Positions 59,647 through 64,000 of a stretch of DNA of 64,000 nt are shown one piece after another. The notes below the pieces were generated by a model. It searched no databases, had not been told where the DNA came from, and was given only the letters and a program-made list of their open reading frames with translations. The DNA comes from Methanosarcina barkeri 3 (GTDB taxonomy: Archaea > Halobacteriota > Methanosarcinia > Methanosarcinales > Methanosarcinaceae). The stretch lies in contig NZ_CP009517.1 of assembly GCF_000970305.1 (NCBI RefSeq), positions 1,240,001-1,304,000 on the forward strand, given 5' to 3'. Within the stretch, counting starts at the first letter, position 1; every line of letters begins with the position of its first letter. The position numbers were made by a program, and so were the translations under genes.

Positions 59647-60591
59647 TTAATGACCAACCTTTTTTTTGTTTCGGTCCCAGCTCCAGGGCTCATCAAGGAT
59701 ATTGACATTAACCTTTTCTACCCCTTCCGCACTCAGGACTTTTCGCCGGATCTGTTCCTTAAAGTACTCGATCATAGGGCAGGCGGTTGTTGTTAATACA
59801 AGATTTACTTCTACATTTGGGCCGTCGACTATTATTTCCTTGACCAGACCCAGTTCGACAATATCCATCCCTACACTTGGGTCGATCACGTCTTTTAGCA
59901 GGGAATAAATTTTCTCATCCTTAAGAGCTGTTCCTTGTGGAATTTCCTCATGTCCGGAAACTGCCTCTTCATGTGCCTTAAACTGATCTTCTAGCCTGCT
60001 CAGCCGGTCAAGTATCTGGCTTATCACAATAAGTCCGGGATCAGGAAGCTTATCGTGGTCAAGTTGCCCTACAGAATCCGGGGTATGTGGCTCTGCAACC
60101 CTTGCAGGGACTCCAACAACCGTAGCTCCGGCTGGAACCGGCCGGATGACAACCGAGCCGGCACCGATTTTAGCTCCTCTTCCGACAGTAATCGGTCCAA
60201 GTACGGCTGCTCCTGAACCGATAACAACATCACTTTCAATAGTAGGATGACGCTTTACCCTTTCCAGAGCTGTCCCCCCCAGGACAACTCCCATGTATAT
60301 CAGAACGTCATCGCCTACCTCGGCAGTTTCTCCGATCACAACTCCGGACCCGTGGTCTATGAAAACTCTCCTTCCGAGCTTTGCCCCCGGATGGATTTCA
60401 ATACCTGTCAACATCCTGGAAACGTGAGAGAGGAGACGGGCCAGAAAATAAAAGTGTCTCTCCCAGAGCGAATGAGATATCCGATGTACCCAGATAGCAT
60501 GCAGGCCCGGATAGCAGCAAATTACCTCAAGCGTAGACCTTGCTGCAGGATCTTTTTTAAAAACTGTCCTGATATCTTCCCTGATTCCCAT
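59647..60591 (-). CDS. cysE: Serine O-acetyltransferase fused to a MIP18/DUF59 domain
   Basis: 314 residues. The first 170 form the short, EpsC-like CysE: catalytic [13 protein letters not shown] (His80), left-handed helix repeats, [17 protein letters not shown] and GVPARV. After a helical linker (170-220) comes a MIP18/DUF59 domain (226-306; [40 protein letters not shown]) with the conserved Cys271 seen in Fe-S assembly factors such as SufT/PaaD. So one chain joins O-acetylserine formation with a putative Fe-S assembly module. Lies 97 bp downstream of cysK on the same strand. Confidence 0.92.
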
Positions 60592-61615: not shown

Positions 61616-61672
61616 ACTTTTACCGTCTCCTGCAACTTGCTTTTTTCAGGTTCCACATACTTTAATTTAATT

Positions 61673-61728
61673 GGATTATATTAATTAGATTATATTAACC
61701 AGATTATATTAATTAGATTATATTAACT
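61673..61728. repeat. 14 bp tandem repeat, four copies, upstream of cysK
   Basis: GGATTATATTAATT, then AGATTATATTAACC, AGATTATATTAATT and AGATTATATTAACT. Each copy contains a TATA-like ATTATATTAA, so the array sits where the cysK promoter is expected (58-113 bp upstream of the start). Confidence 0.88.
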
Positions 61729-61894
61729 CAGAGCTATATTACAAGCTGTCAATTGTGCGTGTTTTGCACTCAAACCTTTTCAGGCCTGATTATAGTTGAT
61801 CGGATGACTTTTCATTTAGCCGGCTGGTATTTTAAACGGCAAACGCGACTGTAATATACAGCGAGATGCGGAAACATACAGATAATTCACAGGA

Positions 61895-61912
61895 AATTCA
61901 CAATTGTGAATT
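61895..61912. promoter_or_regulatory. Perfect 18 bp palindrome AATTCACAATTGTGAATT
   Basis: Lies between cysK (start 61615) and the 62268 regulator. The core TTCACAATTGTGAA recurs, with small changes, twice over the nifS start site (62960-62993). Probable binding site of a dimeric regulator of the cysteine/sulfur locus. Confidence 0.6.
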
Positions 61913-62016
61913 AATCTTATGTTTAATATAGTTATCGAGAAATTTCTTTACTGAAAACGTACATAAGAATGAAAAAAATCCGACAACAGGATGTAAAAAA
62001 GTGAAGAAGCGGAAAA

Positions 62017-62205
62017 GCATTAATGGAAAAACAGTAAAAGGACTAAGAAGCAATAAAAGGACTAAGAAGCAATAAAAGGACTGAAAAGCAATAGAAAGAC
62101 TGAAAAACAGTAAAAGGACTGAGAAGCAATAAAAGGACTGAAAAGCAATAGAAAGACTGAAAAACAGTAAAAGAACCGAAAAACAATAAAAAAGCTCTAA
62201 AAGCA
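62017..62205. repeat. 19 bp tandem repeat, about nine copies, with a 57 bp higher-order period
   Basis: Units AAAAGGACTGAAAAGCAAT, AGAAAGACTGAAAAACAGT and AAAAGGACTGAGAAGCAAT alternate so that a three-unit block (57 bp) appears twice. Since 19 is not a multiple of 3 the array is not coding, although a Phe/Leu/Ser-rich antisense frame stays open. Confidence 0.9.
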
Positions 62206-62267
62206 GTAAACGAACTGACAAAGTCCGGCTTTATGCTTCAGATTCTTCTTTATTATCAACTTTACCT

Positions 62268-62624
62268 TCAAGTTTTATCTTCTGTTTCATCCTCTGCATG
62301 TTCTTCCTGACTACAACCGTTGTTGCACTTATTTTCAATTCCTCTGGCACTTACACAGATCTCACAGATTCTTGCTACAAAGTCATCAACTCTGTTCTCA
62401 ATCAGGTCCTGAGCAAGCTTTTCGATCAGTTCTTTAGTTTCGCCCTGAAACTCGATTCTGTATCCTCTTTTTCCCGAAATATACTGGGAAACTGCCGATG
62501 GAGCAATCTCCAGCAACTTTGCAGATGCTGCCTGTGACTGTCCTTTTTTTACGAGTTCGATTGCAAGACTGGCCCTTATTGCGGGGACCAGATCCCACAC
62601 AATCTTCTGACACGGAGTTTCCAT
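62268..62624 (-). CDS. Helix-turn-helix regulator with C-terminal cysteine motif
   Basis: 118 residues from ATG 62624. HTH of the XRE/lambda-like type: LVKKGQSQAASAKLLEIAPS followed by AVSQYISGKRG. The C-terminal part carries C-x2-C...C-x3-C (ICEICVSARGIENKCNNGC), suited to bind a metal or Fe-S cluster, then an acidic tail. It stands between cysK-cysE and nifS and next to three palindromic sites, so a sulfur- or Fe-S-responsive repressor of this locus is the natural inference. Upstream, TTTTACAATTGAAA (62663-62676) resembles the same site and could allow autoregulation. Confidence 0.82.
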   Translation of the reverse strand: METPCQKIVWDLVPAIRASLAIELVKKGQSQAASAKLLEIAPSAVSQYISGKRGYRIEFQGETKELIEKLAQDLIENRVDDFVARICEICVSARGIENKCNNGCSQEEHAEDETEDKT

Positions 62625-62711
62625 AATTACCATCACTTTTTGAGATATTACAATTTTTGAAATTTTACAATTGAAAGCAAATATGTCTGGTATACATATA
62701 AATTATTATCA

Positions 62712-62924
62712 TTGGAAAAAACAATAATGAGATCCCTGGACAGCTTTCTTGGAAATGAAACTTTGAGAAAAATGGCTCGATTTTTAGCAATTAAAAAAGT
62801 TTCCGAAAAGATTCAAAGTGTTTCTGAAAAGATTCAAAGTGTTTCTGAAAAGATTCAAAGTGTTTCTGAAAAGATTCAAAAAAGCTCCTGGAAAGATTTC
62901 TGGACTCTTTCTGTATATCTGTGA
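62712..62924 (+). repeat. Heptad-repeat mini-ORF made by a 21 bp tandem repeat
   Basis: Four copies of a 21 bp unit (62799-62882, GTTTCTGAAAAGATTCAAA plus GT) lie inside an open frame of 70 codons. In frame it reads VSEKIQS four times, an amphipathic heptad, after FLGNETLRKMARFLAIKK. It lacks a good ribosome site and sits between divergent promoters, so it may be only a repeat; if translated it would be a small coiled coil. Confidence 0.5.
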
Positions 62925-62951
62925 TTTTTTTCCTGGTGTCTTACGATAAAA

Positions 62952-62993
62952 CTTATATATTCACAATTGTTATTGTTTATTCACGATTGTGAA
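62952..62993 (+). promoter_or_regulatory. nifS promoter with two overlapping operator-like sites
   Basis: TATA box CTTATATATT (62952-62961) is followed at once by TTCACAATTGT (62960-62970) and by TTCACGATTGTGAA (62980-62993), 20 bp apart start to start. The second site covers the expected transcription start, so binding should block initiation. Same motif as the palindrome at 61895. Confidence 0.68.
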
Positions 62994-63002
62994 GGTGTGA
63001 GT

Positions 63003-64000
63003 GTGACCACTGAAAAAAAGACCGTTTACATGGACAACTCGGCTACAACTCCTGTAAGAAAAGAAGTTGTCGAAGAGATGCTTCCGTACATGACTGAAAA
63101 TTTCGGAAACCCTTCTTCGATTTATGAGATCGGAAAAATCTCAAAACATGCAATAGACAAAGCGAGAAAAAAGGTTGCGGATGCTCTCGGAGCTGAAGAA
63201 AACGAGATCTATTTCACATCAGGAGGTACTGAATCCGATAACTGGGCAATTAAGGGGATAGCTTTTGCAAACCGGAATAAAGGAAAACACATAATCACCT
63301 CTTCTATCGAACACCATGCAGTCCTGCATACCTGTGCCTGGCTTGAAGGGCAGGGCTTTGAGGTAACATACCTTCCTGTAGACAAATACGGAATGGTATC
63401 CCCTGATGAAGTGAAGAAGGCAGTTCGAGCCGATACCATCCTTATTTCCATAATGCTTGCAAACAATGAAATAGGGACAATCCAGCCTGTAGAGGAAATA
63501 GGAAAAATCGCTAAAGAGAACCGGATCTATTTCCATACGGATGCAGTGCAGGCAATAGGCCATGTCCCTATTGATGTCAATAAAATGGATATTGACCTTC
63601 TGTCACTTTCAGGTCATAAGTTCGAAGGTCCAAAAGGCTGCGGAGCTCTCTACATTCGAAAAGGGACAAAAATAGATATTCTTCTGCACGGCGGAGCTCA
63701 GGAAAGAAAGCGCAGGGCCGGAACCGAGAACGTCCCTGCCATTGTGGGCCTTGGAAAAGCTATAGAGCTCGCAACAGCCGAAATTGAAGAATCAAATAAA
63801 ACCCTGCTTGAACTGAGAGAGCGCCTTATTAAAGGCCTTCTGAAAATCCCAAAAACTCACCTCAATGGGCATCCCACACAGAGGCTTGCAAATAATGTGA
63901 ATATCACTTTTGAATACATAGAAGGCGAATCGCTTCTGCTGCTATTGAACGCAAAAGGAGTTTTTGCATCTACTGGGAGTGCATGTAACTCTTCTTCTCT
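63003..64000 (+). CDS. nifS: Cysteine desulfurase NifS/IscS (C-terminal end beyond the window)
   Basis: 332 codons seen. Takes sulfur from cysteine for Fe-S cluster assembly using PLP. Starts at GTG 63003 behind GAAGGTGTGA. Family landmarks: VYMDNSATTPVRKEVVEEM, FTSGGTESDNWAIKG, SSIEHHAVLHTC, HTDAVQAIGH, PLP lysine in LSGHKFEGPKGCG, RAGTENVPAIVGLGKA and, at the very end, the catalytic Cys in STGSACNSSS. The usual partner gene is probably just downstream, outside the window. Its promoter carries the operator-like sites. Confidence 0.96.
   Translation, partial: MTTEKKTVYMDNSATTPVRKEVVEEMLPYMTENFGNPSSIYEIGKISKHAIDKARKKVADALGAEENEIYFTSGGTESDNWAIKGIAFANRNKGKHIITSSIEHHAVLHTCAWLEGQGFEVTYLPVDKYGMVSPDEVKKAVRADTILISIMLANNEIGTIQPVEEIGKIAKENRIYFHTDAVQAIGHVPIDVNKMDIDLLSLSGHKFEGPKGCGALYIRKGTKIDILLHGGAQERKRRAGTENVPAIVGLGKAIELATAEIEESNKTLLELRERLIKGLLKIPKTHLNGHPTQRLANNVNITFEYIEGESLLLLLNAKGVFASTGSACNSSS

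Follow-up and report, generated by a model that had tools for sequence, protein, structure and literature searches.

A probable palindrome-marked sulfur regulon in Methanosarcina barkeri 3 that includes tRNA-Cys genes, and a small cysteine-bearing HTH protein as its likely repressor

Genes for sulfur assimilation and sulfur transfer in Methanosarcina, tRNA-Cys genes among them, are likely to form a genome-wide regulon marked by a 14-bp palindrome, TTCACAATTGTGAA, with binding and repression at these sites being inferred. The likely repressor of this regulon (with a probability of roughly 0.8) is a small helix-turn-helix (HTH) protein encoded at positions 62268-62624 of the window, the 64,000-nucleotide stretch of DNA that was analysed (positions 1240001-1304000 of a genome of 4,560,446 bp in one contig). 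Its binding to DNA, its action as a repressor and the signal to which it would respond are likewise inferred. The palindrome is a perfect dyad of the half-site TTCAC/GTGAA (TTCAC-N4-GTGAA), and this symmetry is suggestive of binding by a dimer.

On the minus strand, the HTH gene is followed by cysK and then cysE, and the gene is divergent from the promoter of nifS, creating the following arrangement of genes, putative operators and promoter elements (window coordinates):

59647-60591, minus strand: cysE, serine O-acetyltransferase with a C-terminal FeS_assembly_P domain (PF01883), from Pfam and NCBIfam TIGR01172
60689-61615, minus strand: cysK, cysteine synthase A (NCBIfam TIGR01139, 464 bits)
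61897-61910, no strand: perfect putative operator at the promoter of cysK-cysE, AATTCACAATTGTGAATT if its flanks are included (from 61895), from the sequence
61920-61931, minus strand: TATA-like box of cysK, reading ctatattaaaca on that strand, taken from the sequence and an inference
62268-62624, minus strand: candidate regulator, the 118-aa HTH protein, with no family match at a curated cut-off
62663-62676, no strand: weak putative operator TTTTACAATTGAAA at the regulator's own promoter (autoregulation site), from the sequence
62692-62703, minus strand: TATA-like box of the regulator gene, read from the sequence and an inference
62951-62959, plus strand: TATA box of nifS (acttatata), from the sequence
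62960-62973, no strand: nifS putative operator 1, TTCACAATTGTTAT, between the TATA box and the expected transcription start, from the sequence
62980-62993, no strand: nifS putative operator 2, TTCACGATTGTGAA, over the expected transcription start and adjoining the start codon, from the sequence
62997-64000, plus strand: nifS cysteine desulfurase, running off the window (NCBIfam TIGR03402)

The sequence-only reading had placed a perfect palindrome beside cysK-cysE, two near copies over the nifS start and a weaker copy before the HTH gene, and all of these elements held. The perfect site lies approximately 280 nt upstream of the cysK start codon, and a site before cysK, positioned behind a TATA-like box, is found in 13 of 16 Methanosarcina genomes. 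In the case of nifS, there are two possible GTG starts, at 62997 and 63003, with operator 2 ending 3 and 9 nt before them, respectively; the sequence and spacing of operator 1 are kept in most Methanosarcina species, and nifU follows nifS at genome position 1304284.

The intergenic regions of this locus also carry three tandem repeat arrays (62026-62218, 62799-62880 and 61667-61741, with periods of 19, 21 and 14 bp), one of which falls in the inferred 280-nt cysK leader, and CysE, with its C-terminal domain, is a fusion of an uncommon kind for a serine acetyltransferase. A second copy of the HTH-nifS-nifU block lies approximately 160 kb away, with genome positions 1142590-1144815 corresponding to window positions 61897-64000. 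The duplicate encodes a 98% identical HTH protein and has the same two-site nifS promoter, and it keeps the cysK-type promoter site (1144802), cysK itself being gone.

The enrichment of the palindrome is not random. Ten perfect copies are present in this genome, as compared to none of the reversed control and to 0.06 expected under a first-order Markov model of the window (0.0008 per 64 kb), and 31 Methanosarcina genomes together hold 108 perfect copies versus none reversed. All ten copies in this genome are confined to two zones, 1.143-1.187 Mb and 1.302-1.306 Mb, and three or more copies at two or fewer mismatches within 1.1 kb were seen in none of 60 simulated windows. At three or fewer mismatches, there is no enrichment over the whole window (5 found versus 6.7 expected), and loose copies elsewhere are therefore meaningless, with only close ones counting. 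The absence of excess among loose copies is a point in favour of regarding the palindromes as chance occurrences, or as a repeat family without a regulatory role. Against this stand the more than 100-fold excess of perfect copies over expectation, the recurrent promoter geometry of the sites, and the conservation of the site before orthologous genes in another order, which together leave almost no room for such an explanation.

With respect to promoter geometry, 72 of 131 gene-oriented sites have a TATA match of at least 7/8 on their upstream side and 20 have one on their downstream side, and the upstream TATA-to-site distances cluster near 8, 23 and 31 bp. For cysK and the regulator gene, the expected transcription start, as inferred from the TATA position, falls inside the site. 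The putative operators are positioned downstream of, or overlapping, the TATA box and transcription start, including at the regulator's own promoter, although the starts are inferred from TATA boxes and are unmapped. Such placement is typical of a repressor acting by obstruction of the polymerase, an inference for which there are no expression or mutant data. It is also conceivable that the same regulator is an activator, whereby bound sites help to recruit the transcription machinery at low sulfur, as many promoters carry two or three sites and the distances to the TATA box vary. However, archaeal activators normally bind upstream of the BRE/TATA, whereas here most sites follow the TATA box and cover the expected start, at nifS coming almost as far as the start codon. 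Activation is thus considered unlikely, and repression is the preferred mode of action.

Sulfur genes among the targets of the putative repressor were confirmed with NCBIfam and Pfam. In this genome, sites lie before cysK-cysE and nifS-nifU of the window, LarE and a divergently encoded MoaD/ThiS protein, the second HTH gene copy (98% identical) with nifS-nifU-thiF (genome 1141273-1144525), an operon for a radical SAM protein, an ABC ATPase, a CobW-like protein, an Fe-S protein and methanogenesis marker 16 (MMP16), as well as tRNA-Cys-SepCysS, tRNA-Cys-metY-metX, and an orphan 95-aa gene. In M. acetivorans, MMP16 reportedly serves as the main coenzyme M synthase (PMC12068725). Further targets found in relatives include SufS-FdhD-ThiM, NadA and others. 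When sites with at most one mismatch are considered, 94 of 127 sites in 16 Methanosarcina genomes are within range of an automatically recognised target, and in five Methanomicrobiales genomes 22 of 36 sites were assigned to one; the gene classes common to both orders are nifS, SepCysS, cysK, radical SAM, LarE, tRNA-Cys and the HTH gene. Approximately one quarter of the Methanosarcina sites could not be assigned automatically, and some targets are not obviously sulfur genes. Rfam searches of the regulon stretches returned tRNAs only, with no riboswitch.

A regulon defined by the shared palindrome, with a Cys-containing repressor, was the central claim of the sequence-only reading, and it would have been refuted had the motif occurred at random genome-wide or lacked conservation before nifS orthologues. 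Neither is the case, given the excess of perfect copies described above and the conservation of the site before nifS orthologues in 12 of 16 sampled Methanosarcina genomes and in 5 of 5 Methanomicrobiales genomes. The claim is supported, with the regulon being far larger than nifS and cysK, and the accompanying description of a self-contained switch is too narrow.

Two further groups of site-bearing genes are of note. In two genomes, a perfect site (L135:3131 and L166:2978) lies approximately 150 bp upstream of a gene resembling the catalytic subunit of carbon monoxide dehydrogenase, which adjoins an SsuA-like ORF; the family is confirmed only for the L135 copy. The orphan 95-aa protein is conserved but has no Pfam match (L018:3386-3673, equivalent to genome positions 1187385-1187672, and L181:8780-9124). 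Strong sites accompany its gene in six Methanosarcina genomes, and in a Methanoregula relative the gene is found inside an SsuA-SsuC-SsuB-like ABC transporter operon.

The tRNA genes found directly behind sites are tRNA-Cys(GCA) in every case, as identified by ARAGORN, and no site accompanies the handful of tRNAs of other kinds (Arg, Leu, Ser and Pyl) in the stretches examined. The gap between the end of the site and the tRNA-Cys is approximately 5-16 nt in one type and approximately 20-63 nt in the metYX-linked type. The housekeeping tRNA-Cys genes, a tandem pair present in 9 of 9 tested genomes, have no site, the best matches having 5-7 mismatches. This tandem pair is all that is found in the four HTH-lacking genomes tested (G008, G015, G024 and G025, the last being 79% complete), and from the absence of the extra tRNA-Cys genes in such genomes it follows that these genes travel with the regulator and the site. 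One metY-type tRNA-Cys in this genome, at approximately 1556446, is without a regulation site.

Several tRNA-Cys isoacceptors are known in M. mazei (cited in PMC8762117), and it is from these isoacceptors and the linkage to SepCysS that the regulated tRNA-Cys copies are inferred to serve the SepRS/SepCysS route. A bolder reading, which could as readily prove wrong as right, is that a new archaeal sulfur-sensor family controls both the sulfur enzymes and a dedicated, conditional set of tRNA-Cys genes for tRNA-dependent cysteine biosynthesis (SepRS/SepCysS) under sulfur scarcity, apart from the constitutive housekeeping pair.

Some of the regulated tRNA-Cys copies score low as tRNAs, for instance 35-36 bits in L017 (L017:17713-17783), and one stretch (L149:4628-8199) holds four copies of the single type, each with its own site; some regulated copies look decayed. 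The perfect sites at genome positions 1152105 and 1156808 have no obvious gene, and are read here as promoters of decayed tRNA-Cys copies. The site at genome position 4550812 was considered as a methyltransferase target and rejected, since it marks the promoter of a tRNA-Cys gene on the opposite strand.

That the HTH protein itself binds the palindrome is very likely, although this is an inference made without binding data. Most Methanosarcina HTH orthologues have a site at approximately -35, TTCTCAATTGTAAA or better, and the orthologues of the Methanomicrobiales (Methanoregula and Methanofollis, 54-62% identity overall and 55-62% for Methanoregula) have a perfect copy at approximately -55 to -61. 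In another genus group, TTCACAATAGTGAA is found at approximately -97 before the HTH gene. In three Methanospirillum-type loci, the site takes the form of a 3-bp-spacer variant, TTCAC-N3-GTGAA, that occurs once per locus and directly upstream of the HTH gene, a spacing wholly absent from Methanosarcina loci totalling 159 kb. The autoregulatory site in the window is a weak match and unconvincing alone, but its position matches that of the better copies in orthologues.

A second line of evidence is co-occurrence across 101 genomes of the family, with sites counted at no more than one mismatch. The 70 genomes with a close HTH orthologue have a mean of 5.29 sites (control 0.64), as compared to 0.58 sites (control 0.39) for the 31 genomes without one (Mann-Whitney p = 8e-14, within-genus permutation p = 0.0002), and the difference between HTH-bearing and HTH-lacking genomes still holds within genera. 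Genome size, completeness and joint loss of gene blocks are partial confounders; the HTH gene, nifS, cysK and metYX often form one block, and the co-occurrence therefore partly reflects joint loss. One HTH-lacking genome, G024, still has four copies with one mismatch, with no perfect ones. The link between palindrome and regulator, initially only inferred, is now well supported by the orthologue sites and by co-occurrence.

It could be argued that another protein binds the sites and that the HTH protein is merely a fellow target, a candidate being wHTH84, an 84-aa winged-helix protein (genome 1187955-1188206) encoded within a site-bearing operon in both orders. In support of this, wHTH84 adjoins sites in several genomes, including one Methanomicrobiales genome where it lies between the sites and cysK. 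However, wHTH84 is missing from 36 of the 70 HTH-bearing genomes, which still carry sites (mean 3.86, control 0.78), and is present in six HTH-lacking genomes with background sites only (0.5). Such a distribution rules out wHTH84 as the sole binder, and makes binding by a protein other than the HTH protein very unlikely. A separate paralogue of the HTH protein, 38% identical and with its own conserved cysteines, is encoded at genome positions 4025942-4026220, with counterparts in nearly all genomes of the family. This paralogue is unlikely as the binder, since in genomes that encode it but lack the HTH gene the sites do not exceed background.

The HTH protein has helices at residues 4-26, 31-38, 42-50, 61-75 and 82-94, and an AlphaFold2 model (pLDDT 82.8) is all-helical, with helices 31-38 and 42-50 placed as the HTH; the model is confident over the five helices and of low confidence past residue 102. 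Five cysteines are present, C5, C87, C90, C100 and C104 (C87-x2-C90 and C100-x3-C104), and among 40 homologues C5 is invariant while C87, C90 and C100 each occur in at least 90%. Searches of Pfam and NCBIfam identified no family at the curated cut-off, the best Pfam match being HTH_3 (PF01381) of the XRE/Cro-C1 superfamily, below threshold (17.3 bits for the HTH protein of the window and at most 21.6 bits for relatives, versus a cut-off of 23). A fold search of the PDB with the model found nothing below E = 0.9, and a PDB sequence search found only weak HTH matches (best E = 6e-4). No ligand-binding or effector domain was found in the protein. It is plausible that the conserved cysteines sense Fe-S clusters or sulfur species, an inference without metal or cluster data. 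In one genome (G003, L128, G003:C2:1656000-1667000), the HTH gene is apparently interrupted, with residues 1-86 and the cysteine tail (84-117) approximately 1.2 kb apart and a 330-aa ORF between them; this may be a natural case in which the sensor part has been lost.

In the proposed mechanism, the HTH protein would bind TTCACAATTGTGAA as a dimer and block RNA polymerase. With plentiful sulfur (sulfide, cysteine or Fe-S clusters), its cysteines would hold an Fe-S cluster, a metal or bound sulfur, and the genes would be repressed; when sulfur is scarce, the protein would release DNA and the whole gene set would be switched on, including a second tRNA-Cys set that would feed the SepRS/SepCysS route. 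The opposite sign of the sulfur response, or an iron signal, remains possible. Less probably, the regulator senses iron or redox state rather than sulfur supply, acting as an Fe-S homeostasis switch, as suggested by the conserved cysteines, and by the presence in the regulon of nifS-nifU, NadA (an Fe-S enzyme) and the window CysE with its FeS_assembly_P domain. Against this possibility, most targets use sulfur without iron (cysK-cysE, metYX, SepCysS, tRNA-Cys, LarE, MoaD/ThiS and the coenzyme M synthase), and no iron uptake gene was recognised beside a site in the stretches examined, where not every neighbour was annotated. The Fe-S homeostasis role first suggested for the locus is just one arm of the regulon, and the target list better fits a response to sulfur or cysteine supply.

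Functionally, the HTH protein is like bacterial sulfur and Fe-S regulators, but by the tests made it is a member of none of their families. CymR and CysB are bacterial master regulators of sulfur metabolism, CymR acting in complex with CysK and CysB with N-acetylserine. As with these proteins, a single factor would preside over cysteine synthesis, methionine/homocysteine synthesis and sulfur uptake; however, CymR and CysB belong to other protein families and use other effectors, whereas the present protein is archaeal, small and of HTH type with a cysteine tail, and its putative targets include tRNA-Cys and SepCysS. IscR and SufR are Fe-S sensing repressors of the bacterial isc and suf operons, and share with the present case a small, cysteine-bearing, autoregulated repressor beside a cysteine desulfurase gene, with operators over the promoter. 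Unlike theirs, the archaeal regulon is wider, and cluster binding has not been shown for the HTH protein; no match to the Rrf2 family, that of IscR, was found among Pfam matches up to E = 10.

SurR, a sulfur-responsive ArsR-like regulator of sulfur and hydrogen metabolism genes in the Thermococcales, is similarly archaeal, linked to sulfur and in possession of a CxxC motif, but it recognises a different site, in contrast to the all-helical HTH protein with biosynthetic targets and TTCAC-N4-GTGAA. The N-terminal HTH (PC..I....LPAIR...AVSQYISGKRG) may resemble that of ThiR and relatives, archaeal HTH proteins that are COG2522-like. Unlike ThiR, the HTH protein ends at 118 aa, with no room for, or match to, a thiamine-phosphate-synthase domain. 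IscS2 and IscU2 of M. acetivorans (MA2718 and MA2717) have been studied before (PMC7585200), and from gene order we take their genes to be those beside the orthologous HTH gene in that species (G001). Sulfur-source proteomics also exists for M. barkeri (PMC10846266). No such regulator was found in the literature searched, from which most subscription papers were excluded, and an earlier description of it remains possible.

The need of methanogens for sulfur and Fe-S clusters is exceptionally high, and the regulation of their sulfur assimilation is essentially open. The present analysis names one gene, a precisely defined site and a set of targets linking cysteine, homocysteine and coenzyme M with sulfur relay and with the tRNA-dependent synthesis of cysteine; the genus concerned, Methanosarcina, is genetically tractable. 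If the reading is correct, the switching of one tRNA species by the repressor of a nutrient regulon would be uncommon, and might go some way to explaining why some methanogens have two Cys-tRNA routes and extra tRNA-Cys isoacceptors.
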